Virus record (IMG/VR): IMGVR_UViG_3300049203_000200
Span: 1 to 44,616 of that record
DNA from: a virus
Direction: 5' to 3' (one strand)
DNA length: 44,616 bases
Positions 8,401 to 44,607 of the stretch are shown in pieces. Each line of letters starts with the position of its first letter. The first letter of the stretch is position 1. Made by a program: the position numbers and the translations under genes. The notes under the pieces were generated by a model. That model made no database searches, was not told the origin of the DNA, and saw only the letters and a program-made list of their open reading frames with translations.

Positions 8401-8666
8401 TCGATGGCAGCTTGACGACGCAGGCTGGCGAACCGGTGGAGCGAGAGGACGCCGCCCAGGTCGCTCTCGATATTATCGGGATCATCAAGGCCCACCACAT
8501 TGTGGGGGTGTGGTCCAATGAGGTTGCGCAGAACAATATGCGTAACGCCATCGACGACTATTTCTTCGATGTCCTGCGTGATGAAAAGGACGTTGGTGTC
8601 CCCGTTGAGATGCTTGATGACCTCGAGCAGAAGATCATGGACTTGGCCCGGGCAAGGTTTCCGTGA
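5454..8666 (+). CDS. hsdR: Type I restriction endonuclease subunit HsdR
   Basis: A 1070-residue motor and nuclease subunit, normal length for HsdR. The N-terminal PD-(D/E)xK nuclease shows CDIVAFVNGIPMLVIENKRP, with the E-x-K pair near residues 165-167. The SF2 translocase follows: Walker A in WHTQGSGKSLTM near 339, DESHR near 436 and FTGTP near 469, then helicase C motifs (LLTGFDAPRNTVLYV, QAIARVNRLY). The rest is the helical C-terminal domain that binds the methylase core. HsdR translocates DNA with ATP and cleaves at a distance when the site is unmethylated. All catalytic residues I can see are intact. Its start overlaps hsdS by ATGA and its end overlaps the next gene by GTGA. Confidence 0.96.
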   Translation: MSFNAAEKFQSQIPALQLLVALGFQPLSLAEALRLRGGRLRNVVLDDILVENLMRINRFTHKGREYPFDLEDAHEAMRKLKPTPDRLKGLRGTNQDIYDTLVLGTTITKTIDGDSKSYSFRFINWDTPTNNAFHVTAEFSVERTGSTQSKRCDIVAFVNGIPMLVIENKRPTESLKKAGSQLIGYQNEDKIPQLFHFTQLLLTMNRIEARYATVGTPQKFWGTWRDEEDTDQAIDPFANRPLTAEEKDAVFSGDFAGARRYFDAMMAEGTRAISPQDRTIYSLCRPERMLDLIRRFTVFDGGMRKVARHQQYFGIRKAVERVKQVDATGARKGGVIWHTQGSGKSLTMVMLGRSLALDKAILNPRIIIVTDRDDLDKQIKDTFRSCDMEPVRATTGANLLELIEQKAGLITTIINKFDTALRNSASTDDDANIFVLVDESHRTQTGKYGGHSQFATKMRRLLPNACYLGFTGTPLLKKEKNTLSTFGGLIHKYAINEAVADEAVVPLLYEGRMVEQQISGTVIDKWFEKISEGLNDKQKADLKQKFSRMDALAKTGQAIRAKAFDISEHYRQHWQGTGFKAQLVAPSKAAAIRFKEMLDDIGHVTSEIIMSPPNDNEGNEEVDKESKDLVRKFWDQMMARFKAEDEYNRQIIDAFKGSGDPEILIVVSKLLTGFDAPRNTVLYVCKSLKEHNLLQAIARVNRLYEDDGVEKQFGFIIDYEGLLGELDSALTTYSAFEGYDAGDLVGTVHDVREEIRKLPQLHDQLWGLFKSVRNKKDMEEFEQLLGDEAIRHDFYERLKAFSRCLHISMSSDKFLDVFDEAKVETMKRDWKRFSELKRSVQLRYQEVVDIKEFEPKIQKLLDDHVVALPAETIIEVVNINDPDALKAVVEETGVSEGSKADRIASATRRTITEKMDEDPAFYTQFSELLKETIRAYREKRLSERDYLNSVIDLASKVARKDRGRDVPDAVKGNDDGQAFFGLLDGSLTTQAGEPVEREDAAQVALDIIGIIKAHHIVGVWSNEVAQNNMRNAIDDYFFDVLRDEKDVGVPVEMLDDLEQKIMDLARARFP

Positions 8667-9382
8667 CGGAGCCTGAACATCTCAGCCTGCTCTATGGTGA
8701 AAACCGGATCGATTATCAGGTCGTCAGGCGGGCGCGCAAAACGCTCGAAATCGCCGTCGAGCCTGATACATCCGTGGTCATCGCCGCCCCAGAAGACGCG
8801 AGCCTCGAAGCCATCGAAGCCAAGTTGCGGAAACGGGCAGCCTGGGTGACGCGTCAGCAGCGGTTCTTTGCCCAATTCCTGCCTCGGGTCCCGCCGCGGG
8901 AGTTCGTGCCTGGGGAGACACATCTCTACCTCGGACGCCAATACCGGCTGAAGGTCGTCCCGCATGTGCAACAGGCGGTCAAACTGATCCGCGGCTACTT
9001 CGTGGTGCAAACGCACAGGCCGCTCAGTCCTGATGTCACACGGGAATTGGTCGAAGCTTGGTACCGCGAACGGGCGCATGTCAAATTCGCGGAACGGATC
9101 GAGGTCAATCTCAAGCGTTTCGCAGATATAGAGCTACGCCGACCCAAGGGGCTAATCGTCCGCCAACTCAAACAGCGCTGGGGTTCGATGTCACCCGGGT
9201 CTCGTCTCATGTTGAATCGCCGACTGATTGAGGCCCCGATCGACGCCATTGATTATGTCATCACCCATGAACTCTGCCACGTCAGCGAGCCGCACCATGG
9301 AGCCGCTTTTTACGAACTGCTAGCGCGGGTGATGCCGGACTGGGAGCGCCGAAAGCTGCGGCTTGAGCGGGCGATGGCCTGA
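8663..9382 (+). CDS. YgjP-like (DUF45) zinc metallopeptidase at the end of the RM operon
   Basis: A 239-residue protein of the YgjP/DUF45 (M48-related, SprT-like) family. It has the family signature KQRWGSMSP, then the zinc-binding HELCH near residues 201-205 with a third ligand in HHGAAFYELL. The family is predicted to be a cytosolic zinc-dependent protease. It often follows hsdR, where it may process or turn over RM subunits, though I know of no proven substrate. The GTG start is supported by the GTGA overlap with the hsdR stop. It closes the six-gene chain; the next 95 bases hold only a hairpin before the convergent prophage genes. Confidence 0.88.
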   Translation: MTEPEHLSLLYGENRIDYQVVRRARKTLEIAVEPDTSVVIAAPEDASLEAIEAKLRKRAAWVTRQQRFFAQFLPRVPPREFVPGETHLYLGRQYRLKVVPHVQQAVKLIRGYFVVQTHRPLSPDVTRELVEAWYRERAHVKFAERIEVNLKRFADIELRRPKGLIVRQLKQRWGSMSPGSRLMLNRRLIEAPIDAIDYVITHELCHVSEPHHGAAFYELLARVMPDWERRKLRLERAMA

Positions 9383-11441: not shown

Positions 11442-12347
11442 TCAGTATCCCGCCGCCATCCAGGAGAAATCGGTACTGCTGTCCGAAGCGCTCCAGATCG
11501 TGAAGCCCGTCGTCGTGATGCTGCCACTCTGCACGTCGGCGGCGTTGTCCTGCGCGTCGTTATCGATGTTCGAAGTGCCGCCTTTGGTGACGGAAACCTT
11601 CGACGCGTCGGTGAACGGAACCGGGAATGTCGCCGCCGTTGAGCCATTCGCGGAGGCCGTCTTGCGCCCCCACTGGAAATAGTAAGTCGTCCCGCTGATC
11701 GTTATGCCGATCGCCAGGCCGTTGCCATTGCTGGTGACAGTCAGCGAGGCTTGGGCGCCGAGCGTCGTCAAGGCGGCGGGGGCATTGGCATCGTCGAGCA
11801 GGGTTTTGGCGAAGGCGGTGAGGTCGAACAGCCCAGCGGTTCCTGAGCCCGTGAACTGGATGCCCTTGTCCGCCGCGCTCGTCAGGCCTGCCAGTGCCGC
11901 TAGCTCGGCGTCATAGGCTTGCACGTTGGTCCCGATGACCAGGCCGAGCAGCGTCCGCATCGCGGCATAATCCGCCGCCGTAACAAGGCTCTTGCCGTTC
12001 GCAGAAAGGCCAAGCGTCGTCAGCATGGCGTCGACGGTTGTGTCATCCAGCAGCGACCGGGCGGCCGCCGTGAATGTCGCCAGCGCCGATGTGGCCGAGC
12101 CATTGAAATAGGCAAGCCGGTCGGCCGCTGGCGTGAGGTCGGTGAGCGCCACAAGACCCGGATCGGCATAGGCCGGAGCTGCCGCGATCAGCGCCGCCGT
12201 CGCCTCCAGCTGCGCCGCCAGGGTCTGCATTTCTCCGACGAAGGTGTCGAACCATGCAACGAAGTCGTCGGCGCGCTCGATGAAGAGGTCTGGCGGGTCG
12301 CTGCGAGATGGCGCCGTTGGGGGCGACGTAAGGTCTTGCAGCGGCAT
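11442..12347 (-). CDS. Tail fibre protein with gp53-like C-terminus
   Basis: A 301-residue fibre protein. The N-terminal part (SRSDPPDLFIERADDFVAWF, then QTLAAQLEATAALIAA) is helical. Two copies of a fibre repeat follow (LTPAADRLAYFNGSATSALA and LTSAADKGIQFTGSGTAGLF, each followed by a segment like AFAKTLLDD). The C-terminus (TTYYFQWGRKTA, FTIWSASDSSTDFSWMAAGY) matches the short gp53-like terminal domain of phage fibres, which typically ends in a W-x-A-x-GY motif. It probably trimerises at the tail tip and contacts the cell surface. It shares its repeat with the next gene, which suggests duplication. Confidence 0.75.
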   Translation of the reverse strand: MPLQDLTSPPTAPSRSDPPDLFIERADDFVAWFDTFVGEMQTLAAQLEATAALIAAAPAYADPGLVALTDLTPAADRLAYFNGSATSALATFTAAARSLLDDTTVDAMLTTLGLSANGKSLVTAADYAAMRTLLGLVIGTNVQAYDAELAALAGLTSAADKGIQFTGSGTAGLFDLTAFAKTLLDDANAPAALTTLGAQASLTVTSNGNGLAIGITISGTTYYFQWGRKTASANGSTAATFPVPFTDASKVSVTKGGTSNIDNDAQDNAADVQSGSITTTGFTIWSASDSSTDFSWMAAGY

Positions 12348-13393
12348 CAGGTCAGCCCCTCCAGTTCAAGAGTGAGATAGGTCTCGTTCGGATTGGCGAA
12401 GTCGATTTTCCAGTCGCGCGCCCAGCCGTAGACCCATGTCGAGGTGTAGCTATCGACCCCGACCCAGACGACGGGGGTGGCACGGTATGACGCCAGGATC
12501 GCCGCGATGGCGTCCACCGCGTCTTCGTCCATAAGAATCCGGAAATTCGCCCGCTTGGCGAATGGGCGCTCGACAATGGTGAAGTTGCCGAAGTCGTCTT
12601 GAACCTTGCGGCTGAAATCCTGAATGCCGAAGCTCGATGAATGGATCAGCGTGCCGATGTCGCGGCTTTGCCCGATCACGAGCGTGCCGATGCTCGTCAT
12701 GTCGCCCGGTTCGTTGAGGATGACCGTTATCTTCGGGTCCGCATTAAGAGGCAGATCGTAGATGGTCAGATCGCCTTTTCGCCCGACCGGCTCGAAGAAA
12801 TACTCATACCAGTTGTCAATTCCGCTATCCGAAACGAGGTTGAAGGTTTCGTTGTAGATTTCCCCGTCTGTCACCGTCTCCATGATGACCTGGGCGGTGG
12901 CGCCGAGGATATTCAGCAGCGACACGGCATCAGCGCGACCGCTGATTTGAACCTCAACCTCGATACTTTCCTCGCGCGTGGTGACGCTGGTGTTTGACTG
13001 GTCGAACATGCGGTAGCGGTTGGTCGGGCCGAGATCGAGCCACCATGCCGCATCCGCCAGCGAATGCCCGACATTGCCGGCCTGCAAGGATTGGTATTCG
13101 TGATTGGTCGTGGTCGATATGACAATATCGTCCAGGCCGTAAGTCGTGCCACCATTATAGGTCGTGTAGGTGGTGCTAAGTTCATTCCACCAGAGCGGCG
13201 AAGACGCGGGCGTATTGCCGGTGTTGCCGTTTTGCAGGCTCTCATAGACGGTAACGACGGTCCCGGCCGCGACGCCTCTAATATCGCCGTCCGCGTAGGT
13301 CGTGCCCGCGTTATATTCGGCGGGCGCGGCATCGGTGACGTTGGAGGATAGGAGGTTCAGGGCATTGATGGTCGCTGGCCGGATTATCCGCAT
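12347..13393 (-). CDS. Tail tip protein with two carbohydrate-binding-like repeats
   Basis: A 348-residue protein directly after the tape measure gene. Residues about 27-70 and 78-118 are two copies of a module reading YNAGTTYADGDI ... YESLQNGNTGNT ... WW and YNGGTTYGLDDI ... YQSLQAGNVGHS ... WW, the pattern of CBM5/12-type chitin-binding modules frequently used in phage tails. The rest (FSRKVQDDFGNFTIVERPFA, LEGLT at the end) resembles a distal tail or hub protein. It overlaps both neighbours by one base (TGATG). Binding of surface glycans is inference. Confidence 0.7.
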   Translation of the reverse strand: MRIIRPATINALNLLSSNVTDAAPAEYNAGTTYADGDIRGVAAGTVVTVYESLQNGNTGNTPASSPLWWNELSTTYTTYNGGTTYGLDDIVISTTTNHEYQSLQAGNVGHSLADAAWWLDLGPTNRYRMFDQSNTSVTTREESIEVEVQISGRADAVSLLNILGATAQVIMETVTDGEIYNETFNLVSDSGIDNWYEYFFEPVGRKGDLTIYDLPLNADPKITVILNEPGDMTSIGTLVIGQSRDIGTLIHSSSFGIQDFSRKVQDDFGNFTIVERPFAKRANFRILMDEDAVDAIAAILASYRATPVVWVGVDSYTSTWVYGWARDWKIDFANPNETYLTLELEGLT

Positions 13394-16300
13394 CAGATTT
13401 GATCCACATAAACGGGAGCGTCAGCCGTGTTGGCGAGCGAGACATCGAGCGGCGTGTCGGGGTCGGTCTTGACCAGCAGGCCATCGCCATCCCACCGCCG
13501 TTGCAGACTCAGGATGGCGGCGGTGTTGTCGACGATCTTGGTATTCACCGCTGCGGTTTCGGCGCGCATGGCGCGTAGCTCAGCGGTGACGGGATCGGTG
13601 CCGGTGGAAACCGCTGCCGTTGCCGCCGTGACCGTCGACACCGTTGCCGGTGCGGACGATCCGCCGAGCAGCGTCTGGACGTTGACAATCCCGGCATCGA
13701 TGCTGGCCAGGATGCCCATGGAGGCGTTGAGCGCATCCAGCTGCAGCTGCGCATAGTCCGCCGTTTCGGTCGCCGCGAATATGCCCGCGTCGACCGCGTT
13801 GGCCACCATCGCCACATCGCGCAGATAGGCGTTGAACGTGCTGGCGTTGTCCCGGGATGCCGAAAGGAGCGCCTTTCCCGCACCCTCAAGCCCCGACAGG
13901 CCGGCAGCATTGCCCTGGGCGGCCAGAGCAGCGGTGGACAGGAATGCGCTTCTGGCTGCGCCGTAGGGGTTCCCGCTGGCCAGCGCGCCCTGCCGCAGCT
14001 CGTCCCGGTATTTGATCAGCGACTTGGCATAGCCCTCAAATTCCGAAACGGTCGATTTGAACGCGTCGGATAGAGTTCGGTTCGCCTCCTCGGCATATTC
14101 CGCAACCTTGTTGAAGGCGGGCGCCACCGCGAGCAGCGAGGCGTAAAGATCCTGTCCCGCCGCGCTGGTCAGGTCGATGCCGAGAACCGCCGCCTTGAAC
14201 TGGTCCTTGGTGTTGATGCCCGCCAATCCCAGGCGAGCCATTTCCTCACGTACAGCCGCTGCGATCGGCGCGATCTGCTCGGCATCGGTCAGGAAATTCT
14301 CGCGGAAATATTGCGTCTGCTCGGTGAAGGCGTCGAGCGAACCGAACAGGTCGATCAGGTTCTCCCGCGCCTCCACCGATGCGGCCCCCACCGCGCCGAA
14401 GATCATGCCGATCGACTTGAGCGACGTATCGATCGTCATATAATCCTTGGCCAGCCGCATCAGCGTCTCGAAGACGCCCTCGCCCACCTTCTGGAAGGCA
14501 TCCAGGCCGGGGATCGCAGCGCGCGCCATGTCGTCGCCGAGTTTCGAGAAGACGGCGTTCAGCTGCTCCTGGATCTCGGCGCCGGTCAGATCCTTCAGGC
14601 TGATCTTGCCAAGGTCGACCTTGAACGCGTCGAGCACGGCTGCCGCGCCGTCGATCCCGAGCACGGTGCCGGCCGACACGATGCCATCCCGCAGCGAGCC
14701 GATCAGCAGCGCGACCTGGCTCTCCAGTTCGCTGTCGAGATCGCCCGTCACCGTGTTGACGCTGGTCTTGTTCGATGTGGTGACGCCGAGGAACTTCTTT
14801 TTCTTCTTCTTCTGGATGTCCTGATAGGTTTGACCGTCGATCCCGCTCGCAAGGATGTCCTCGATTGTGGCTGCAGTGAACCGAAGCCCCTGATCGAGCA
14901 GGGTCAGCGTCGTCTTGGTGCCGAACAGCGCCTTGCCGATGGCGCCGAGGAAGCCGCCGATGACCGGTATGCTCGACAGGAGCTTCCACCCGATGCCGAG
15001 GATGCTGTCGATCTTGGTGTTGCCGCCCAGCCCGAGCGCCGAGGTATCGAATGCGCCGCCACTGATGCCGAGCTGGCGCGCGATCAGGCTCGAAAGCTGG
15101 CCAATGTTGGTCTCGATCGCACGGAGGCTCTTCACCATCGCGTTCGAATATTCGAGGTCGCGGTTGCTGTTCTTGGTCAGCAATTCGAGCGAGCGGGCGA
15201 TCGATTCCGACTTGGCTTTGCTATCACCGAGGGTTGAGCCAGTACCCTGCGCGTCCTGAAGTTCCTCGGCCGAGGGGATCGACGCGCCCTTGCTCCCGCC
15301 CCCCGCGATTTTGATGCCCACCGCCGCCAGTGCGGCGAGCACCGCCGCGCCAGCCGCGATGTTGAACGGGAACGGCAGCGAGGCGAGCGTCTTGGCGAAC
15401 GCGGCGGCACCATCTGCCGCTGCCCGGATGCCCGAGTTCGCGACCGATGATGCCGTCTTGGTGCTATCCACGATCATCGACTTGATCGCCATCGCGAGTT
15501 CGACGGCGCGGAAGGCTTTTTCGGCGGTTTCCATAACCTTGTAGCCGGCGGATTTCGTCTTGAAGAAGCCCTTCGCGGCGCTGGCGATGTTGCCATAGTG
15601 GTTGATCTGGGCGGCGGCGGATTTCTGCGCGGCGAGCGCCTCGATCTGGGCAATTCGCGTCGCGTCGGTGCCAGCCAGTTTTAATTGCGCGCGGCGATCG
15701 TCGGCGATCTTCTGCTGATAGACCGCATAGCCCGTCAGTTCGGTGGTGAGATTGCCGATCGCGGTGCCGATACTACCGAATGCGTCGGCCATGCCGCTCG
15801 CGGCGTCACGCGCGCACTGGTCGATCAGGTCGAGAAGGTCGGCCTGATATTCAAGCGAGGCGTTATAGTTGTTGGTCGCCGTCGTGAGCGCGTCTTGCGC
15901 GACGGCCCGACCGACGATTGCGGCGGTGAGCGCCCGCGCCTCTTCCGGGGTCAGATCTCGCATTCCTTTGAGCTTCTGCTCGGCTTCGAGTTGCGCGAGC
16001 GCGACGGCCCGCTCGGCGTTGGTTTTGCCGAGCAGCGATAATTCGAGCTTCATGCGCTCAGTGTCGTCGTTTGCGTTGGCGGTGGCAGCTTGAGCCTGCG
16101 CGCGCGCAGCCTCTAAATTGGAGGCCGCCTGCGCCGCAGTCATCCGCTCAATCTCCGTGGTCAGCAGGTCCAGAGACCTGCCGTGCGCGATAGCCGCCGC
16201 GCTAACCAGCGGGCGCAACTGCGCCTCATCACGCAAAGCGGCGCTGGCATCGGATGCGGACAATGTACCGGCCGCGACCTGATCATTCACGCGGCGCTGT

Positions 16301-34261: not shown

Positions 34262-36109
34262 TTATTTTCGCAGCAGGTCACCCAGCGAAATTTCTTGAAG
34301 CCCCGGGTTGATTCGATAGCCTTTCCCGGGCTGGTTCTCGATGATATCGTTCTCATCAAAGGGCAGCCCTTGGCCGAGAACGATATCCTCGGTGATTGCC
34401 TTGCGCAGGCGGTTTACCTGCTGGCGAAGCGATTGATCTGTGAGACTGAGCTTATTAGCCAGATCCAGCGCCTGGATGGATGCAACTTCGTGGCCATCCG
34501 ACTTGCCCTCCCGGAACATGGGAAGCAGCGCCTCGAAAAGCTCAAAACTTTTCCCTTCCAGCACAACGTCGCCTCGGAACCTGATCTTGCGCGCGCTCGC
34601 ATCGACCGCGAATTCACAGACAGGTGCTGCGAGCCGATCCACAAACGTCCGGGCTTCTTCCTGATAGCCAGATGGCTCGGCTATTTCGATCCGGTTCTGA
34701 TTAAACAGCATGGCAAGCAAGGACCCAGCTGGAAGCCCGCCGCTCGTCAATTGAGGAAGGTGTGCCGCGACACCGCTGTTGAGCACTCCTATGACGTCCT
34801 CATGATGCCGCATGTACATCTCGTATATGCGGTCGGCCGCTTGGTCCCTCGGTGTGTCATGGAGGTGGTCGAGCGCGGAAACGATTTCCGGATATTCGCC
34901 AATAAACCGGTTTCTGGGGGTGTCCCGAAAATCCCGAAAGAACTTCACATACGCTGCTGCCATCCGCACGTCGCGATCGTGAGTACGGTCGCCGGTCAGG
35001 AGATCCACGCCGTAGAGACCGGAAGCCTCCATATTGCCCAGGCCGGCGGCAAGCACGGCGAACCGGCGATCGATGCATTGCGAGCACACCCCGCAATGAG
35101 GGCGCTTTATCGACATGACACGTGGACGAGTGCAGCTATTCGTTTGGGCAAGCAACTCGCCCGCGCCATACGCGTCAATCTTCCGAACTATCTCGGTTTT
35201 GGTCAGCCATTGAAATGGTGTCCGGACAATGATCTCTCGTTCAAGCAGCGATGAGAAGAACGTCTCGAAACCCCGGATTACTCTGGGATGCGTGGTCCGG
35301 GTGGCTCGAGCTCCCAGGACGTCCCCGGCAATCGGAATATTCAGGCTGACCACCCCGTTCTCGTAAAATGTGATTTCATCTTTGCCGAACATCCTGGCGA
35401 CAACGACACCTAGTGCTGCGAACAGGAAAGACCTTGTGCGCTGCGTATATTCGACAGGGACTGAGCCCGTGTTTGTGATGTTCACCGGAACGAAGAAGAG
35501 TCGCGGACCGCAAGCGCGTTGGTTCAGCGCGTCAACCAGCTGCTTTTGAATATTGAATATCTTGGGTGCTGAATGGTGACCGACCAGCACCATTTTTTTA
35601 CCTTCTGCCTGCGCTTCGATCACCCCGGCGAATGAATCCAGCCCGCCCGAAAAGAGGGCTATTTCATCGGGCTGATCGGCACGATCGGTGAGGTCGGAGA
35701 AGTAGGCTTCGCTCGCCGCCAACGGGGACTGCGCCCGGACAAACTCAAATGTATAGTGGTCGTCCGCCAGGAAGCCGAGCATATCCGCCAGACCGTCCCG
35801 AACTTCCTGACGCTGCCAGATGCTATGTGCGCGTACCGGAATTCGAAAGACCATCTCACGGCGCCAGTCGGTGCCATAGTCGGTCAGAAATTCTGAACCA
35901 CGGCGCGTCTGCTGATCTGCGCAATAGACATAGGCCGCGACCTCAAGCAGATCGAGCAGGACATCGGGGATATCGCTGACCAGCGCCTTGCTGATATCTG
36001 TGATCCGGAGATTTATGTTCCTAGCTGCCCCTTGCACATCCAGTGCCCGGCGGTCGCCTCCCAGCGTCGAGACGACATCCAGACCCCCGCAGGCGAATTC
36101 AAACCCCAC
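34262..36109 (-). CDS. QueC-like PP-loop enzyme fused to an OmpR-type winged helix
   Basis: About 615 residues. After a roughly 150-residue N-terminal region comes an ATP pyrophosphatase domain with an intact PP-loop (ALFSGGLDSFAGVIEA), as in 7-cyano-7-deazaguanine synthase QueC, and near residue 337 a complete four-cysteine zinc site (NSC ... HCGVCSQCIDRR) of the QueC type. The last 100 residues (VLEGKSFELFEALLPMFREG, SLRQQVNRLRKAITEDI, PGKGYRINP) match the OmpR/PhoB winged-helix DNA-binding domain. QueC makes preQ0 from carboxy-deazaguanine, ATP and ammonia; QueC relatives in defence (QatC, CBASS Cap9) modify other targets. GTG at 36109 has AAAGGG nine bases upstream; GTG at 36139 is an alternative. 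It overlaps the preceding gene. Confidence 0.82.
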   Translation of the reverse strand: MGFEFACGGLDVVSTLGGDRRALDVQGAARNINLRITDISKALVSDIPDVLLDLLEVAAYVYCADQQTRRGSEFLTDYGTDWRREMVFRIPVRAHSIWQRQEVRDGLADMLGFLADDHYTFEFVRAQSPLAASEAYFSDLTDRADQPDEIALFSGGLDSFAGVIEAQAEGKKMVLVGHHSAPKIFNIQKQLVDALNQRACGPRLFFVPVNITNTGSVPVEYTQRTRSFLFAALGVVVARMFGKDEITFYENGVVSLNIPIAGDVLGARATRTTHPRVIRGFETFFSSLLEREIIVRTPFQWLTKTEIVRKIDAYGAGELLAQTNSCTRPRVMSIKRPHCGVCSQCIDRRFAVLAAGLGNMEASGLYGVDLLTGDRTHDRDVRMAAAYVKFFRDFRDTPRNRFIGEYPEIVSALDHLHDTPRDQAADRIYEMYMRHHEDVIGVLNSGVAAHLPQLTSGGLPAGSLLAMLFNQNRIEIAEPSGYQEEARTFVDRLAAPVCEFAVDASARKIRFRGDVVLEGKSFELFEALLPMFREGKSDGHEVASIQALDLANKLSLTDQSLRQQVNRLRKAITEDIVLGQGLPFDENDIIENQPGKGYRINPGLQEISLGDLLRK

Positions 36110-36893
36110 CGGACGATGCCCTTTCTGCCAATTCCGCACTTATCTTCTTCAAGGCGAAGGAAGCGAAGTTGCGCGTCTGCAAACGTGAGATCTGTCGGTC
36201 TTTGACGTATACGTTCTTTGCCAGCCAATCTTTCGAGAAACCGCGCATGATGAGCGTCGACTCTTCACAATGACGACGAACAGAACGATTGAGAAGTGAC
36301 ATGTCGCCAAGCGAATGTGCCAGTTTGTCCCTGCCAATATGCTTGGGCCACTCCCGGTCCAGGTAGTAGAGGATGTTGCGCTCTGTCAGCTTCGTGAAAA
36401 ACCGTTGGGCAAGTTCACCAAACTTGTCCGGTGAAGCCAAGGTAGCCAGCGTCGTCCTCTCGTCGTCACCGCCTGCCTGCCAAAGAGATGGAAGCCGCTC
36501 CTGCGCCACTTCATAGAGGGCTGCAATCCCGGCTTGGCGCGACATCTCGCCCAAATCGGTGATGTGCGTGTCGGCCCGACGAATGACCTTTTCGATAGCG
36601 GCGTCAAAGCCGATCACCACATCCAACAGGGACGGAGCTGGCGGGCCTTCAATTCCAATCACTTTGAGAGCAGCAGCGAAATCAGCGGATTTTGCGGCCT
36701 GTGGAATTTTGATTAACAACCAGCACACCTCGACGAACGCTGCATCAGTTGCTGCTCGCTTCAGGGCCTTTTCAGTTGCCTTGTAGATGGCATTCGCCAG
36801 CTGCCCGACGTCGACGTCTCCGGCGGCGAGATAGGCAACGATATCTTTCCATTTCCGAGATGCCGGCAATTTGCCAAGCCTGACGTGCCCCAT
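36099..36893 (-). CDS. Unknown protein coupled to the QueC-like gene
   Basis: A 264-residue protein beginning MGHVRLGKLPASRKWKDIVA. It is mostly helical (VGQLANAIYKATEKALKRAA, LLDVVIGFDAAIEKVIRRAD), with an aromatic segment FFTKLTERNILYYLDREWPK and conserved-looking histidines and cysteines (RRHCEESTLIMRGFSKDWLA). No catalytic motif is evident. I recall similar proteins starting MGHIRLG-LP as a family of unknown function, but could not check. AGGGGGG precedes the ATG by five bases. Its end overlaps the QueC-like gene by about 11 bases, so the two are very probably made together and act together. Confidence 0.72.
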   Translation of the reverse strand: MGHVRLGKLPASRKWKDIVAYLAAGDVDVGQLANAIYKATEKALKRAATDAAFVEVCWLLIKIPQAAKSADFAAALKVIGIEGPPAPSLLDVVIGFDAAIEKVIRRADTHITDLGEMSRQAGIAALYEVAQERLPSLWQAGGDDERTTLATLASPDKFGELAQRFFTKLTERNILYYLDREWPKHIGRDKLAHSLGDMSLLNRSVRRHCEESTLIMRGFSKDWLAKNVYVKDRQISRLQTRNFASFALKKISAELAERASSGGV

Positions 36894-37535: not shown

Positions 37536-38014
37536 TGCAAATTCAGACAATGAAGGTAGCGGCAGGCAACGCCCAGGTGCTGGCCAGGCTGGCCGCGCTG
37601 AAGGCGGTGACGGTCGGGGAGCTGAAAACCGAATGGCAAACCTTGATGGGATCGGCCGCGCCCAACAACAGCCGATCGTTTCTAGAGCAGCGGCTGGCCT
37701 ACAGAATCCAGGAGCTGACCTGGGGCGGGCTGGCCAAGCCGGTCACCCGGCTGCTTGATGCCTTGGCCGACGAGGTCGAGGGCAAGAAGGTGAGGAAGTT
37801 GGTGATCAGCGACCCACGCAATCCGGTCATCGGTACGAGGCTGGTGCGCGAATGGGATGGGGCGGAGCACGTCATCACCGTGATGAAGGACGGGTTCAAC
37901 TGGCAGGGCCGCCGCTACAAGTCGCTGTCGGCGGTCGCCCGCGACATCACCGGCACACGCTGGAACGGCTATCGCTTCTTCGGCCTGCGTGAAGCCAGGG
38001 GAGACGCACGATGA
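37535..38014 (+). CDS. DUF2924 protein of the recombinase module
   Basis: A 159-residue DUF2924 protein: AVTVGELKTEWQTLMGSAAP, FLEQRLAYRIQELTWGGLAK, GTRLVREWDGAEHVITVMKD and GFNWQGRRYKSLSAVARDIT then GTRWNGYRFFGLR. The family always accompanies large serine recombinases in this setting and its C-terminal part looks DNA-binding, so a recombination directionality or accessory role is plausible but unproven. GGAGGA lies five bases before the ATG at 37535. It overlaps the recombinase gene by ATGA. Confidence 0.85.
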   Translation: MQIQTMKVAAGNAQVLARLAALKAVTVGELKTEWQTLMGSAAPNNSRSFLEQRLAYRIQELTWGGLAKPVTRLLDALADEVEGKKVRKLVISDPRNPVIGTRLVREWDGAEHVITVMKDGFNWQGRRYKSLSAVARDITGTRWNGYRFFGLREARGDAR

Positions 38015-39330
38015 CGGAGATGACCCCCCGGCGCCGTCTGCGCTGCGCCATCTACACCCGCAAATCGAGCGAGGAAGGGTTGGACATGGAGTTCAACAGC
38101 CTCGATGCGCAGCGCGAATCCTGCGAGGCCTACGTTACCAGCCAGCGCGCCGAAGGCTGGGCCCTGATGCGCGAACGCTATGATGACGGCGGGTTCTCGG
38201 GCGGGACGCTCGATCGCCCGGGGCTGAAAACCCTGATCGAGGATATCGAGGCCGGGCTTGTCGACGTGATCGTGGTCTACAAGATCGACCGCCTCAGCCG
38301 TTCGCTGATGGATTTTGCCAAGCTGGTCGAGGTGTTCGACCGGCACGGGGTCACGTTCGTGTCGGTCACGCAGGCCTTCAACACGACCACCAGCATGGGG
38401 CGGCTGACGCTCAACATCCTGCTGTCGTTCGCCCAGTTCGAACGCGAGGTCACCGGCGAACGGATCCGCGACAAGTTCGCTGCCAGCCGCGCAAAAGGCA
38501 TGTGGATGGGCGGCTTCGTGCCGATGGGGTATGATGTGGTCGACCGCAAGCTCATCGTCAATGAAGCCGAGACGGCCACGGTCCGCCATATGTTTGAGCG
38601 GTTTGTCGAGCTGGGCTCCGCTACGACGCTGACGCGAGAGCTGGTGGCAAATGGCACCCTCAACAAGCGCGGCAAACCCATCGACAAGGGGTTCCTCTAC
38701 AAATTGTTCCGCAACCGGGTTTATCTCGGCGAGGCAGTCCACAAGGGCACCAGCTATCCCGGCGAACATCAGGCCATCATCACGCCCGAACTCTGGGATC
38801 AGGTGCATTCCATCCTGCAGGAGAGTCCCCGGGAACGGGCGGCCAACACCCGCGCCCAGACTCCGGCGCTGCTCAAGGGACTGATATTCACCGTCACCGG
38901 CATTGCCATGACGCCGACCGCCACCAAGAAGGGCAGCCGCCATTATCGCTACTATACCTCGATGGACGCCATCCGGAATCGCGCCGGTGAAGGCACCGAC
39001 AGGTTTGTCCGCCTGAACGCCGGGATGGTGGAGAATGCCGTAGTCCAACACATCCGGTCTCTGCTGCGCACCCCCGAGGTCGCGGCCCGGGCAGTGGAAG
39101 CCGCGCTCCGGATTGACCCGGACCTCGCCGAGCGTGATGTCGTCGCCGCGCTGTCGGGCTTTGACGGGCTGTGGGAATCGCTGTTCCCGGCCGAGCAGGC
39201 TCGTATCGCACGGCTGCTCATCGAGCGGGTCACGGTCAGCTCTGATGGCATGGCAGTGGATTTGCGCACCGAGGGGCTCGGGTCGGTCATCCGCGAGATG
39301 GTCACGCCGAAACAGGAGTTGGCAGCATGA
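38011..39330 (+). CDS. Large serine recombinase (probable prophage integrase)
   Basis: A 439-residue recombinase. The resolvase domain has AIYTRKSSEEGLDMEFNSLD with the nucleophile Ser 19 in Y-x-R-x-S, and VVYKIDRLSRSLMDFAKLVE and LLSFAQFEREVTGERIRDKF. The recombinase domain follows (GFLYKLFRNRVYLGEAVHKG, ELWDQVHSILQES), with a LLKGLIFTVTGIAMTPT segment replacing the cysteine zinc ribbon of other groups. Such enzymes integrate DNA by recombining short attP and attB sites through a Ser-DNA intermediate. It is the only recombinase in the window and is probably the prophage integrase. Confidence 0.92.
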   Translation: MTEMTPRRRLRCAIYTRKSSEEGLDMEFNSLDAQRESCEAYVTSQRAEGWALMRERYDDGGFSGGTLDRPGLKTLIEDIEAGLVDVIVVYKIDRLSRSLMDFAKLVEVFDRHGVTFVSVTQAFNTTTSMGRLTLNILLSFAQFEREVTGERIRDKFAASRAKGMWMGGFVPMGYDVVDRKLIVNEAETATVRHMFERFVELGSATTLTRELVANGTLNKRGKPIDKGFLYKLFRNRVYLGEAVHKGTSYPGEHQAIITPELWDQVHSILQESPRERAANTRAQTPALLKGLIFTVTGIAMTPTATKKGSRHYRYYTSMDAIRNRAGEGTDRFVRLNAGMVENAVVQHIRSLLRTPEVAARAVEAALRIDPDLAERDVVAALSGFDGLWESLFPAEQARIARLLIERVTVSSDGMAVDLRTEGLGSVIREMVTPKQELAA

Positions 39331-39707
39331 GCGCACTCACCACCATGCGGGTCTTCATCCCGCTCACCCTCCGCAAGCGCAACGGGCGACCAAAGATCCT
39401 GCCCCCGGCGGATATGATGCCGACCAACGACGGCGGCGTGGACCCGCATGTGCTGAAGGCGATCGCCAAGGCGTGGAGCTGGCGGCGGAAGCTGGAGAGC
39501 GGCGCGGCAGCGACCATCCAGGATGTCGCCCAAGCCGAGGATATCTCGGACCGCTATGTCGGTCGAATGCTGAGGCTGGCTTATTTGGGGCCGGCTGTAC
39601 TGGAAAAACTGCTGGTCCAGCGCGTGCCCCCGGCGGTGTCGATCAAGGATTTGGCGATGGCGGCGGAGTTGCCGTGGGCGGAGCAGGAGGCGGCGGTATT
39701 TGGCTGA
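39327..39707 (+). CDS. HTH accessory protein of the recombinase module
   Basis: A 126-residue protein beginning MSALTTMRVFIPLTLRKRNG, with VLKAIAKAWSWRRKLESGAA and TIQDVAQAEDISDRYVGRML, a helix-turn-helix-like segment, then VSIKDLAMAAELPW. Proteins of this kind follow DUF2924-associated recombinases; a DNA-binding regulatory or directionality role is likely but unproven. ATGA overlap with the recombinase stop. Confidence 0.78.
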   Translation: MSALTTMRVFIPLTLRKRNGRPKILPPADMMPTNDGGVDPHVLKAIAKAWSWRRKLESGAAATIQDVAQAEDISDRYVGRMLRLAYLGPAVLEKLLVQRVPPAVSIKDLAMAAELPWAEQEAAVFG

Positions 39708-40518
39708 GCGAAAGGTCCGCTTCGCGCCTAATTGCAGCCTTTCCGCCCACCATCAACTGATCCTGGAAGCTGACGTTCACTCGAGGTTGCCTATCGGATG
39801 CCACGCGATCCCAACTGTGACGCGTGGCATGCGCAAGGTCAGCACAACGGTCGAGTGGATGAAGCTGGTCAACGGCGTCGAGGCGCTTAGCGTCAACGAT
39901 ACCAGCGGCCGCTACCCGCTTGAAAAGGTGCTGCACCAGATCATCTTTCCGATGCGTTCGGGATCCGATGAGATTCTGTATTCGCAGCAGAATCTCTGGC
40001 TCCTCGACGAACGCCTCAACTATCATTCGGTCATCCATTCCGACCGCACGCTCAAATCGATCGACGGCCTGGAATCCGCATCGGCGATGCGCCCGGATCT
40101 GCTTGCCTTCGATCAGGAGCATCTGCTTGCCGACGGGCCGCAGCCGCTTAATGCGTTGACGGTCGTCGAGTTCAAGCGGCCGATGCGCGATGACTATAGC
40201 GACGAGGAAAATCCGTTGAACCAGGTGTTCAAGACGGTCGATTAGATTCGGGCCAACAAGCGGCTCGATGGGCAGGGGCGCCCGATTGCGATTGCGAGCG
40301 CCGATATTCCTACCAATTGCTATATCGTCTGCGATCTCACCGATCGCTTGCGCCGCGTCCTGCTCGACCGCGATGCGACTGAAATGCCTGACCGCCAAGG
40401 CTTTTACGGCTATAATCGCAACCATCGCATTTATTATGAGGTGCTCGACTACGGAAAGGTGCTGCGCGACGCGAAGCGTCGCAACATGGCGCTTTTCGAC
40501 AAGCTCAAGCTGCTTTGA
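39700..40518 (+). pseudogene. Relic of a GHKL (HSP90-like) ATPase gene: 5' part missing, one nonsense codon
   Basis: The frame from about 39830 to the TGA at 40516-40518 encodes the C-terminal region of a large ATPase family (GHKL ATPase followed by a nuclease-like domain): EWMKLVNGVEALSVNDTSGR, YPLEKVLHQIIFPMRSGSDE, MRPDLLAFDQ, VVEFKRPMRDDYSDEENPLN and, after an in-frame TAG at 40243-40245, NCYIVCDLTDRLRRVL, YGYNRNHRIYYEVLDYGKVL and RDAKRRNMALFDKL. E-x-K in VVEFKRP with the upstream Asp fits a PD-(D/E)xK site. The whole ATPase domain is absent; the first codons of the open frame look unrelated. Truncation and stop together indicate a dead gene. Confidence 0.8.
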
Positions 40519-40546: not shown

Positions 40547-43081
40547 TCATTTCTTGCGCGCCTGCTTGACCGGTAACCGGGCGGTTTTTGCCCGGGCCTC
40601 CGGGCCTTCCGACGAAGGTAGAACGGCACCGAATGGCAGGTCGATGCGAAGCTCGACACGGTTCCGGTCGGCTTCCGCGATCGCGCGAACTTCAACAATC
40701 GCTGTCTTGTCCGGAACCACGCCTTTCGCCGGAACCTTCCGCGCGGCCATGACGATCACGAGCTGCGAATTGAGCGCGAGGCCATAGCGCCGTCCTTGCA
40801 TGCCGGCGCCCTTCGCGACCGCAGGCGGGTTGGCCGGTGTTCCGTGATACTTGTTCTCGATCACGACCTGACGTTCGACCAGCAAGTCGAGTTCGCCGCC
40901 AGCGACTTCGGTTCCTTCATCGACGGCGAGCGTAGCGCGCAGATGCTCGACGAGCTTGGCCTGAAGCGCCCCTTCCTTGTCGAGGGCGGTGGTGGTCTGG
41001 TTGCCGGCATACCAGCTGTCGATGAAGCGCCACAGTGACCGCAGCGTTTTGGTGAGCGCATTTCGGCCGGCGACCATTAGGCCGCCTTTCAGTTGCTTGT
41101 TGAGTCCAACCGCCAGCTTGCTCGCGAAGTCCGGGTCGTCGGCCAGCCATTCGTCGGGAACCGCAAGGTCTTCGGTTCTGACACGCAGGAGCGAATGACG
41201 TTCACATGTGATCAGATCGGCGGTTTCCTGATCGATCAGACCGGCCGTGATCAGCGCCTCGATCCACCGCGCGTCGATATTCTGGCCCGCCTTGATGTAG
41301 CCATCAGCGTCCTTGGCCATGACCACGCCGAATTGGCGAAGGAAGATGATCCGGCTGGCGAGTGCGATCACCGGAACGACTTCTTTGGGGCAGAAAACGT
41401 AGCCGGTACGCTTCTGGAGATCGTACGCATCCGCCCATTTCTGCGGATTGAACGAGAATTCCGGCAGCTTGAGCGTGCCGTCCGGGTGACGCGCGAGAAT
41501 GCGGATCGCACCGGCTTTTCGCCCAGGCAGGTCCACGATGATCTGTTCCGCGCCAGTAGCTGACAGTGCCTGAAGCGCACGCTCCATATCCGCAGCGTCG
41601 ATGTCGGATGCCTTGAGCGTGTTGGCGATGTCGTTGGCCAGCACATGGATATCTGCACCGACCTCGTAGCGCGCTTGCAAGCCCTGCAGGCGCTTGACGA
41701 CTTCTTTCCATTGCGCGTCGCGGTTGGATTCGGCTGCATCTGCCCCCAGTCCCGGCGGTGATGCGATAAAGCGGCCGCGAAAGGCGAATGCGCGATGCAG
41801 GAGGTCGCGATTGAGGATGCCGCGCGCGAGTCCCGCGGCAGACGCCGATGCGACTTCAAGCTTTGGATGCGTGACCTCGCCGGCAATGATGCGCAGGAAC
41901 GTATCGTCGCCGACAGAAAGGAAGATCTCGTCGAAATTGAATCGCCGTCCCCGGTCGCGCTCGGCGACCAGCATCATGCGCTGCGCCATGGCCTCGGCCG
42001 CGCGGACCTTATGGTGATGATAGAGCCGGTCATACAGGAAGGTGCGTCCGATCAGCATCTGCTCAAACGAGCCATAGCCCGAAGCAGCGATACCGATTTG
42101 ATGGAAAACCTTGTTGGTAGCCTTGGCGATGCGCGCGCGCATCGCTTCATCGGCGCTCTCCAGATTGCCGTCGTGTACCTGCAGCACCTCGAGCTTGGAA
42201 AGCAGCCGCTCGGTATCGAAGCCGATCCGCAGGCCCGTATGATGCGCATCGCGCATCAGGAAATCGAGACGGTCGGCGTCAACTTGGCCGGAGATGATTG
42301 TCGAAAGGTGCGTGACTCCGGGCCCATCGACGCCGCCGATGATCGCCGCAACGATTCGCTCCTGAACCTGAGTGGAATCGAGACCGCCCAGCCGATACAT
42401 GCCGTGCTGGAGTAACTCGGTCACAGCATCGGATAGGACAATCATCACCGCGATGACTTCCGAGGTCGCTGGCGCACTGTTGAGGCTGTAACGCTCGATC
42501 AACATGGTGCGCGCGACCTTCAGCTCGCGGCGCCAATCGGCGTCGTTTGCGCCAGTCTGCGTGCCCAGCGGTGAGTGCACCTCGAGCACGGGCTCGATCG
42601 CATGGCTGAAAGGGCCATGCCCGAGATCGTGAAACATCGCGGCTAGGCGAAGCGTTTCGCGCTCCTCGTCATCGACGCCCGGCATGGTCTCCGCGGTAAT
42701 GCCGCTGCGCTTCATTTCGGCGTTTCTGCGGGTCACCTGCCGCTGCAGGGCGTCGGCCATGCGTTCGACCGCGCCCACCACGCCCATGATATGCTCGAGC
42801 CGGTCGTGCGACGCGCCGGGGAAAACCAACTGCGCCAGCCCGAGCTGCCGAACGCCGCGCATTCGCTGGAGCAATTGCGAATCGAGTAGAGCGACTTCGC
42901 GCGGCAGCAACTCGATCGTGCCCCAAACCGGGTCGTTCAGCTGCTTGGGTCTGAATTGCTTCGGATCGTCCTGTAATCGGCGAAGTAGGATTTCAACCCA
43001 GCCGGCGCACAACCCGTCTACCTGCATCGCGAGAGCAGGGGCGGCCTCGCGCAAAGCGACTCGAATTGATATTCCCCCCAA
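40547..43081 (-). CDS. HD-domain phosphohydrolase fused to a PD-(D/E)xK-like nuclease
   Basis: Up to 844 residues. The N-terminal half is a SAMHD1/dGTPase-like HD domain with the H-HD-D set: SHDRLEHIMGVV near residue 90, AAMFHDLGHGPFSHAIE near 149 and DADRLDFLMRDAHHTGL near 268. The middle is helical with no recognised motif. Near residues 725-742 GGELDLLVERQVVIENKYHG has the D ... E-x-K layout of PD-(D/E)xK nucleases. The family normally hydrolyses dNTPs; depletion of dNTPs or DNA cleavage would both hinder phages. The longest frame begins with TTG at 43081, six bases after the partner's stop; the first ATG is at 43027. It is convergent with the ATPase relic. Confidence 0.8.
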   Translation of the reverse strand: MGGISIRVALREAAPALAMQVDGLCAGWVEILLRRLQDDPKQFRPKQLNDPVWGTIELLPREVALLDSQLLQRMRGVRQLGLAQLVFPGASHDRLEHIMGVVGAVERMADALQRQVTRRNAEMKRSGITAETMPGVDDEERETLRLAAMFHDLGHGPFSHAIEPVLEVHSPLGTQTGANDADWRRELKVARTMLIERYSLNSAPATSEVIAVMIVLSDAVTELLQHGMYRLGGLDSTQVQERIVAAIIGGVDGPGVTHLSTIISGQVDADRLDFLMRDAHHTGLRIGFDTERLLSKLEVLQVHDGNLESADEAMRARIAKATNKVFHQIGIAASGYGSFEQMLIGRTFLYDRLYHHHKVRAAEAMAQRMMLVAERDRGRRFNFDEIFLSVGDDTFLRIIAGEVTHPKLEVASASAAGLARGILNRDLLHRAFAFRGRFIASPPGLGADAAESNRDAQWKEVVKRLQGLQARYEVGADIHVLANDIANTLKASDIDAADMERALQALSATGAEQIIVDLPGRKAGAIRILARHPDGTLKLPEFSFNPQKWADAYDLQKRTGYVFCPKEVVPVIALASRIIFLRQFGVVMAKDADGYIKAGQNIDARWIEALITAGLIDQETADLITCERHSLLRVRTEDLAVPDEWLADDPDFASKLAVGLNKQLKGGLMVAGRNALTKTLRSLWRFIDSWYAGNQTTTALDKEGALQAKLVEHLRATLAVDEGTEVAGGELDLLVERQVVIENKYHGTPANPPAVAKGAGMQGRRYGLALNSQLVIVMAARKVPAKGVVPDKTAIVEVRAIAEADRNRVELRIDLPFGAVLPSSEGPEARAKTARLPVKQARKK

Positions 43082-43087
43082 TCTGTA

Positions 43088-43495
43088 TCAGGCCTCCAGC
43101 GCCGCCTCCCGCAGCGGCGCGCGCGCGCGCTCGACCGCACCCCTGAGGCGCTCGCCGATCGCACAGGCGTCGCGCGTCGCGATACCGTAGGACAACACGA
43201 TTTGGCGTGCTTCTTCTTCGTCGAGCGTGACCACGGTCGACAAATAGGTCGGATTAGGCTCACTGGTCAGCATCGCTTCCTGCGCGGCCAGCAAAATGTC
43301 GGGCAATTCAAGGCACCTAAGACCAACCCCCGTTACTGAGAATGTCAGTTCCTCCGTGAGGGCGGCGGGAAGATAAGCACGCTCTTCGTTTAGCGCGCGG
43401 TCCAGAATCCCGTGCGAAGTGGGCATCAGCACGTCACTTGCGCCGAGTTTCCAGAGAGCCGTCAGAAGTTCGGCGCGTTCATAGCGATTGACCAT
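43088..43495 (-). CDS. Small partner of the HD-nuclease gene, unknown function
   Basis: A 135-residue acidic protein beginning MVNRYERAELLTALWKLGAS, with LPAALTEELTFSVTGVGLRC, LPDILLAAQEAMLTSEPNP and a helical C-terminus. No family is recognised. I prefer the ATG at 43495 because GGAGG lies five bases upstream; an in-frame start four codons earlier lies over that site. Six bases separate its stop from the HD-nuclease gene, so the two are an operon, transcribed away from the MerR-like gene at 43600. Confidence 0.68.
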   Translation of the reverse strand: MVNRYERAELLTALWKLGASDVLMPTSHGILDRALNEERAYLPAALTEELTFSVTGVGLRCLELPDILLAAQEAMLTSEPNPTYLSTVVTLDEEEARQIVLSYGIATRDACAIGERLRGAVERARAPLREAALEA

Positions 43496-43526
43496 GCCGT
43501 CCTCCATCTAGGCAAATCCCAAACAA

Positions 43527-43573
43527 GGGGTTAACACCATGTCGAAACGGGCTCAACCCCACAAAGTTTCAAC
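43527..43573. promoter_or_regulatory. Inverted repeats in the divergent promoter region
   Basis: The 104-base gap between the two divergent genes contains GGGGTT (43527-43532) with AACCCC (43555-43560), and GTCGAAAC (43541-43548) with GTTTCAAC (43566-43573, one mismatch). Interleaved repeats between a DNA-binding protein gene and its divergent neighbour are the usual form of an autoregulated operator. Confidence 0.45.
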
Positions 43574-43599: not shown

Positions 43600-44022
43600 A
43601 TGAATTATACGCAAGCGCAGCTCCTCAAATTGACCGGCATGAGCCTAGATCGCTTGCGCCATTGGCGGAAGGAAATTCCGGGACTCAAGCAACGCGCGGG
43701 ACGAAAGGCCGAGCTTAGCTTCGAAGAGGTGGCGCTGCTAGCGGTGCTTTCCAGGGCAACCGACGCGCTCGGCTTGTCGGTTACACTATTCGCTTCGAAA
43801 TATGACGATCTGCTCGCTGACTTCCAAGAAAACCCCGATATCGGCGACAAGCGCATCGTCCTGTGGTTATCGCCAGACAAGGCCGTGATTGGAGAAGTCA
43901 CGAACCCGCCGGCTGCAGAAGCACTCGCAATGTTAGAGATTGCGCCGGTTCTGGCGCGAATGGTCGCCGAGGTCCAGCGGCCGGCATCACAACAGCTCAG
44001 TCTGTTTTCCGCAGAGGCCTGA
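43600..44022 (+). CDS. MerR-like helix-turn-helix regulator
   Basis: A 140-residue protein beginning MNYTQAQLLKLTGMSLDRLR followed by HWRKEIPGLKQRAGRKAELS, a MerR-type helix-turn-helix with its wing. A helical region (EEVALLAVLSRATDALGLSV) and a C-terminal part (KRIVLWLSPDKAVIGEVTNP) complete it. It is divergent from the HD-nuclease pair and probably represses or activates it and itself. The ATG at 43600 fits the start of the helix-turn-helix; a TTG at 43582 would add six residues. Confidence 0.75.
   Translation: MNYTQAQLLKLTGMSLDRLRHWRKEIPGLKQRAGRKAELSFEEVALLAVLSRATDALGLSVTLFASKYDDLLADFQENPDIGDKRIVLWLSPDKAVIGEVTNPPAAEALAMLEIAPVLARMVAEVQRPASQQLSLFSAEA

Positions 44023-44517: not shown

Positions 44518-44607
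<90 letters not shown>

Follow-up and report, generated by a model that had tools for sequence, protein, structure and literature searches.

Depletion of deoxynucleoside triphosphates (dNTPs) is an antiviral strategy common to animals and bacteria, and SAMHD1 is an antiviral enzyme of humans. Anti-phage deoxyguanosine triphosphatases (dGTPases) were reportedly described by Tal et al. in 2022, as cited in PMC12409349. The Clover system consists of the dGTPase CloA and the nucleotidyltransferase CloB, and the available part of its description states that CloA senses deoxythymidine triphosphate (dTTP) and carries an HE dyad at H126/E129 (PMC12265719). Here we describe a three-gene module in a virus record of 44,616 bases (IMG/VR record IMGVR_UViG_3300049203_000200), referred to below as the window, that is, the whole stretch of DNA analysed. 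The module comprises a gene for a SAMHD1-type HD protein fused to a predicted nuclease domain (the fusion) and a small gene, both on the minus strand, together with a divergent regulator gene on the plus strand.

The explanation that we favour, with moderate confidence, is an anti-phage operon in which a repressor holds back a SAMHD1-nuclease effector, and as judged from sequence the module is probably an antiviral system of an undescribed type. We read the fusion as an anti-phage effector because this rare, mobile and sometimes broken operon lies amid anti-phage genes while its double catalytic set is strictly kept. The features concerned, in window coordinates, are these:

40547-43081, minus strand: SAMHD1-type HD protein with a C-terminal PD-(D/E)XK-type domain, 844 residues
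41192-42955, minus strand: SAMHD1-like half, residues about 43-630, from structure match, residue alignment and invariant columns
40616-40984, minus strand: predicted nuclease domain, residues about 700-822, from invariant columns and AlphaFold2 topology
43088-43495, minus strand: small acidic partner, 135 residues from the conserved ATG, predicted winged-helix-like
43600-44022, plus strand: divergent MerR-like regulator, 140 residues, conserved start ATG at 43600
43548-43561: operator copy 1, on the regulator side, two mismatches to TGGGGTTRACCCCA
43526-43539: operator copy 2, on the small-gene side, two mismatches to TGGGGTTRACCCCA, 22 bp from copy 1
43993-44007, plus strand: regulator C-terminal tail QLSLF, candidate beta-clamp-binding motif

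The fusion starts with a TTG codon, in register with the starts of its homologues. In Pfam, HD was matched at 30.1 bits and HD_assoc_2 below threshold, with no other family, and sequence searches of the PDB led to 2hek, SAMHD1 and EF1143-type proteins. An AlphaFold2 model built from 11 homologues (predicted local distance difference test score, pLDDT, 83.4) was matched by VIA-align to human SAMHD1 (6u6z_A) over 413 residues at 3.7 Å (Z 30.7, model residues 45-594), with further SAMHD1 chains stretching the fold match to residue 630; the Z scores for 2o6i and 4lrl were 28.6 and 28.1, respectively, and Foldseek gave an E value of 2.3e-15 to 8d94_A. PDB 9mr6, also among the fold matches, is the SAMHD1 of Rhizophagus irregularis and not CloA. 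Counting along the alignment, we take K46, D67, Q72 and R75 to be equivalent to SAMHD1 K116, D137, Q142 and R145, the guanosine triphosphate (GTP) site residues, R94, H97, H151 and D152 to R164, H167, H206 and D207, and H160, D270 and D278 to H215, D311 and D319. All of these fusion residues are invariant in the 11 homologues. They include H97, H151-D152 and D270, the aligned metal ligands of the H...HD...D set, which an earlier sequence-only reading of this DNA had rightly called complete, and the HE dyad, H160-x2-E163, is invariant too. This half is assigned to the SAMHD1/EF1143-type fold, with dNTP hydrolysis predicted from the residue equivalents.

A second set of conserved residues lies near the C-terminus, where the same reading had noted a nuclease-like motif and expected a nuclease-type fold. 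The motif, GGELDLLVERQVVIENK, spans residues 728-744, with D732, E742, N743 and K744 invariant; in the 11 homologues E703, D732, E742-x-K744 and Q762 are all invariant, and R764-R765-Y766 are also listed among the residues of the domain. In the model the elements run in the order helix 703-715, strand 720-722, strand 732-735, strand 739-746, helix 759-769 and strand 774-782. We take a D...(D/E)xK signature with a preceding Glu and a following Gln, on helix-strand-strand-strand-helix-strand, to be the PD-(D/E)XK arrangement, and from this topology residues 703-782 are predicted to form a nuclease domain of that type, as had been expected. On average, two sequences share 52% identity over the HD core (43-390), 39% over the nuclease domain (701-822) and 29% over the linker (641-700). 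The nuclease profile gave no hhalign match to four single proteins, a comparison that is uninformative, and a weak nuclease-only match in G622 (541 residues, E 5.6e-5) was dropped since neither an HD gene nor a small gene lies close by.

This double catalytic set can also be read as a dNTP-gated nuclease, in which sensing is the main task of the SAMHD1 half, dNTP pools raised or altered by replicating phage make it assemble and so bring the nuclease domains together for DNA cutting, and dNTP hydrolysis is the off-switch. All the SAMHD1 GTP-site equivalents are invariant, as this reading would have it, and the nuclease catalytic residues are kept as strictly as those of the HD set. CloA itself senses dTTP, according to the available part of its description (PMC12265719). 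However, similar residues occur in stand-alone HD dNTPase-type proteins (2hek), hence a sensor role is not singled out, and the full HD/HE catalytic set is kept, which would be superfluous in a pure sensor. We regard such a division of labour as possible but rather unlikely.

The small gene is separated from the fusion by the six-base gap already noticed in the sequence (43082-43087); the start conserved in its relatives is the second ATG (43495), in a frame open to 43507. In all six opened loci reached via HD or nuclease queries (L002, L003, L004, L005, L021 and L044) it lies immediately 5' of the fusion. In the reverse search, made with the small protein, the fusion was adjacent in 12 of 14 genome loci and absent in L017 and L018, and a Rhizobium leguminosarum plasmid locus (L006) likewise has the small gene without the fusion. 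The lone genes lie at about 10001-10333 in L006, 571-990 in L017 and 3135-3572 in L018, and such a gene may have outlasted its effector or may serve with different partners. Across 16 small proteins PTSHGILD, C65, L68-P69 and P84-N85-P86 are invariant, the median isoelectric point (pI) is 5.0, and 14 fall below pI 6. The model of the small protein (pLDDT 88.4) matched winged-helix domains (ORC, Wadjet JetABC, BusR and Lamassu) at Z scores of at most 5.7, which is not specific; Pfam gave just three weak single-member matches, there was no match in PADLOC or PHROGs, and sequence searches led to no homologue of solved structure. The identity distances between loci for the small protein correlate with those for the HD protein (r = 0.90, 11 loci). 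Given its constant linkage and its charge, the likeliest role of the small protein is that of an obligatory adaptor, or else an inhibitor, that binds the fusion.

The same gene order could instead mark a toxin-antitoxin-like pair, with the fusion as toxin and the small protein as antitoxin, serving plasmid or island maintenance and affecting phages only secondarily. Consistent with this, the small gene comes first, is adjacent and acidic and is found alone in three loci, while the fusion never lacked it in the six opened loci, and several loci are on plasmids. Yet the effector is far bigger than usual toxins, anti-phage systems recur in the flanks, and a separate promoter-side regulator is found in 10 loci, with a conserved operator in eight. 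We consider a maintenance pair unlikely.

On the favoured reading, control of the anti-phage operon would fall to the divergent gene, which the sequence-only reading had called MerR-like. A divergent plus-strand frame with a conserved start is indeed there, but its Pfam MerR_1 score of 18.5 bits is under the cut-off of 21.6, and the profile match to 2jml is weak (E 0.098). The regulator was found divergent in 10 loci: the window, L002, L003, L005, L007, L008, L009, L010, L012 and L021. In eight of them (all except L008 and L021) TGGGGTTRACCCCA is present between the regulator and the small gene with no more than two mismatches, whereas it was found upstream of the small gene in none of 11 loci lacking the regulator (L004, L006, L011 and L013-L020). 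A second copy, at times weaker, is placed 22 bp off in the window, L002, L003, L005 and L007, so that the inverted repeats noted earlier are two imperfect copies kept in relatives. Other perfect palindromes are present in L008 (CCATTTATAAATGG) and L021 (CGGCTTAAGCCG). In six loci the operator copies overlie TTGANN-N17-TAACC[CA], which points toward the small gene, and since the operators would then cover a possible promoter the arrangement would suit a repressor. MerR activators, by their usual architecture, have the dyad inside a promoter spacer of 19-20 bp. The conserved operator supports the earlier suggestion that the divergent gene controls the operon; that it does so by repression is what we infer.

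How rare and mobile the module is was apparent from its distribution. Genomes of 84,980 species were scanned for the pattern, and 14 loci were found; apart from the two Bryobacterales loci, their titles name Alphaproteobacteria or a genus of that class. The small gene or nuclease domain was found in one of 385 Alphaproteobacteria, the search centre itself, and, in the phylum to which G010 belongs (396 genomes), the full fusion was found in G010 and G470. Copies were found on plasmids of Sphingobium, Rhizobium, Methylocystis and Desulfosarcina. The fusion looks broken by one TGA in L011 and by frame breaks in L015 and L019, and some of the broken copies could be assembly errors. In L005 (Methylocystis parvus) a distance of about 33 kb separates the two halves of the fusion (7667-8980 and 41929-43251), and IS6 transposase genes stand at each break.

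Neighbours were scanned with PADLOC (102 from 13 loci, plus eight chosen neighbours of L002, L003 and L004), and defence genes were found beside seven of the 16 scanned loci, a raw count with several contigs short. Specifically, these were Septu PtuA and PtuB in L002, L003 and L008, a PtuB remnant in L012, CBASS E1-E2 in L004, a type IIG system in L009 and PifA in L014. SspA/B/C, DndA and BrxC were also among the matches in the 13-locus scan, and the Ssp matches were provisionally assigned to L014 because one protein there (11929-13086) resembles a cysteine desulfurase and another (14082-15992) a P-loop protein. Of 18 further single proteins, 13 had no PADLOC match. Septu (PtuA/PtuB) and a DUF2235 (Tle1-like) gene abut the module on two plasmids (L002 9154-12506; L003 16539-20082). 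The surroundings of the homologues are accessory, as had been proposed, and not housekeeping.

Housekeeping, in the form of dNTP balance, is another role of SAMHD1-like HD proteins, and the fusion might on that account be a nucleotide-pool enzyme with a DNA-repair domain and have no part in defence. Against this stand the sparse distribution, the plasmid and island contexts with unrelated flanks, and the broken copies in L005, L011, L015 and L019, which together make such a role highly improbable.

The regulator has a further feature of interest at its C-terminus. In nine regulators the only invariant columns beyond the helix-turn-helix are Q and L near the C-terminus, within tails such as QLSLF, QLDLPF, QLDLPL and QLSLSL. 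The tail of the L021 regulator reads QYSLPL. The beta-clamp-binding consensus, in the available part of PMC4549789, is QLxLF, usually at the C-terminus. We fixed a tail pattern on the first 17 regulators and applied it to seven later ones. Within the last 40 residues it was present in 16 of the 17 (mean of 2000 shuffles 1.6, maximum 6) and in 7/7 of the later set (shuffle mean 0.9, maximum 6; 5000 draws), making 24 of 25 overall with L021 included, L037 being without it. Among 325 proteins of at least 140 residues from open reading frames of the fetched loci, a set that contains some regulators, 22 had the pattern. Since the later regulators are kin of the earlier ones (L057 is close to L025), this reflects conservation of the tail and not independent origin. 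By its sequence the tail is a candidate beta-clamp-binding motif.

Relatives of the regulator were found in 15 loci elsewhere (L023-L026, L034-L037 and L057-L063), each followed by a methyltransferase-like gene (15/15). Their operons encode the regulator, an N6-methyltransferase-like protein (mostly 620-1040 residues) and then a PIN (often), RES or unknown protein; Pfam N6_Mtase and PIN were matched for representatives. In Alphaproteobacteria, this pairing of clamp-tailed regulator and methyltransferase has the appearance of an as yet undescribed system of restriction or defence. Weak regulator matches (E 4.8e-6 to 9.4e-4) in G197, G250, G862, G923, G972, G979 and G1048 were dropped.

Taken as an anti-phage operon, the module might work as follows. 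The MerR-like repressor, bound to the paired operators at the promoter of the small partner and the HD-nuclease gene, would keep the operon low, and infection would release it, perhaps because sliding clamps attract the clamp-binding-like tail where DNA is being replicated. The HD-nuclease protein would then bind dNTPs or GTP at its SAMHD1-like sites, probably oligomerise, and destroy dNTPs; while so activated it would also, as the conserved residues suggest, cut DNA with its PD-(D/E)XK domain. Nucleotide binding may gate dNTP depletion, DNA cutting or both. A broader proposal is that a family of clamp-tailed MerR-like regulators, placed at the head of N6-methyltransferase operons and divergently beside the fusion, makes the expression of immune operons depend on how the replisome is faring, and that the dNTP-bound fusion licenses DNA cutting. 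Phage DNA synthesis would be read twice, through clamp titration that takes the repressor off its operator and through the dNTP signal that sets off the effector. This we hold to be doubtful. A SAMHD1 core joined to a nuclease would put nucleotide sensing and DNA destruction in one polypeptide, a directly testable case.

Several results weigh against the reading of an anti-phage operon held by a repressor. The nuclease domain has no Pfam family and no solved PDB chain by sequence. Occurrence of the small gene without the fusion in three loci suggests that its role is possibly broader. The divergent regulator is not universal: 18 loci outside the window have an HD gene, and in nine of these no such regulator was found (L004, L011, L013-L016, L019, L020 and L044). 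Scoring by consensus hexamers favours other pairs in several loci, which leaves the promoter as a proposal only. Finally, Septu adjacency (four of the seven loci with defence genes) is a raw count, and L012 keeps only a PtuB remnant.

Within the window, a prophage lies in the left and middle parts, with genes for a tape measure, portal, terminase and primase/helicase-like protein, and the neighbouring prophage of the sequence-only reading is thereby recovered. Two further features mark the surroundings of the module:

38011-39330: serine integrase, a prophage gene
44518-44607: tRNA-Ser, adjoining the three-gene module

Because it lies past the integrase and beside tRNA-Ser, the module probably belongs to host or island DNA at the flank and not to the phage core; no long direct repeat bounding the prophage was found in the window. 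The stretch from the phage replication gene to the integrase holds a QatC-like gene with a C-terminal extension (34262-36139, minus strand; PADLOC E 3.3e-53) and, next to it, an unmatched gene of 264 residues (36099-36893, minus strand), possibly defence cargo of the prophage. A relic frame (39700-40518, plus strand) contains a single in-frame TAG (position 40243) and the nuclease-like motif V-V-E-F-K-R; it was earlier taken for an ATPase-nuclease, an identity not confirmed by Pfam, which gave no family even with the TAG read through. As a whole, the sequence-only reading is partly supported.

The open-access literature (subscription papers not covered) yielded no account of a SAMHD1-nuclease fusion in defence, nor of defence regulators that bind the clamp. 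Regulators of immune operons include CapW/BrxR, CapH with CapP and CapK with CapS, as given in the available part of PMC13373217, in whose text neither 'MerR' nor 'sliding clamp' occurs. Like these, as far as that part describes them, ours is a small DNA-binding regulator adjoining several unrelated immune operons; unlike them, it has a MerR-like DNA-binding end and a clamp-binding-like tail, and no WYL, protease or kinase domain was seen.

Predicted dNTP depletion is shared with the anti-phage dGTPases, but matches of the fusion to dGTPase models are weak and partial: the PADLOC model was matched at E 4.9e-4 over profile positions 74-123 only, and family membership was rejected on NCBIfam scores far under the cut-offs (17.3 bits where 390 is required, and 14.4 where 152.35 is). 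With SAMHD1 and EF1143-type dNTPases (6u6z, 2o6i and 4lrl) the fusion shares the catalytic core fold, the HD metal set, the position of the dyad and the GTP-site equivalents; those chains match only up to about residue 630, and the fusion adds the PD-(D/E)XK-type domain, the linked small partner and, often, the regulator. Membership of Clover was rejected, as Pfam matched no nucleotidyltransferase in the small partner. In contrast to Clover, in the available part of its description, the partner is acidic and predicted to be winged-helix-like, there is an extra nuclease domain, and the HD half is nearer SAMHD1/EF1143 than dGTPase models. Both nevertheless occur in defence contexts and pair an effector of the dNTPase type with a partner gene, with identical H-x2-E spacing, and among the systems compared from the literature Clover, as far as its available description goes, is the nearest described one.

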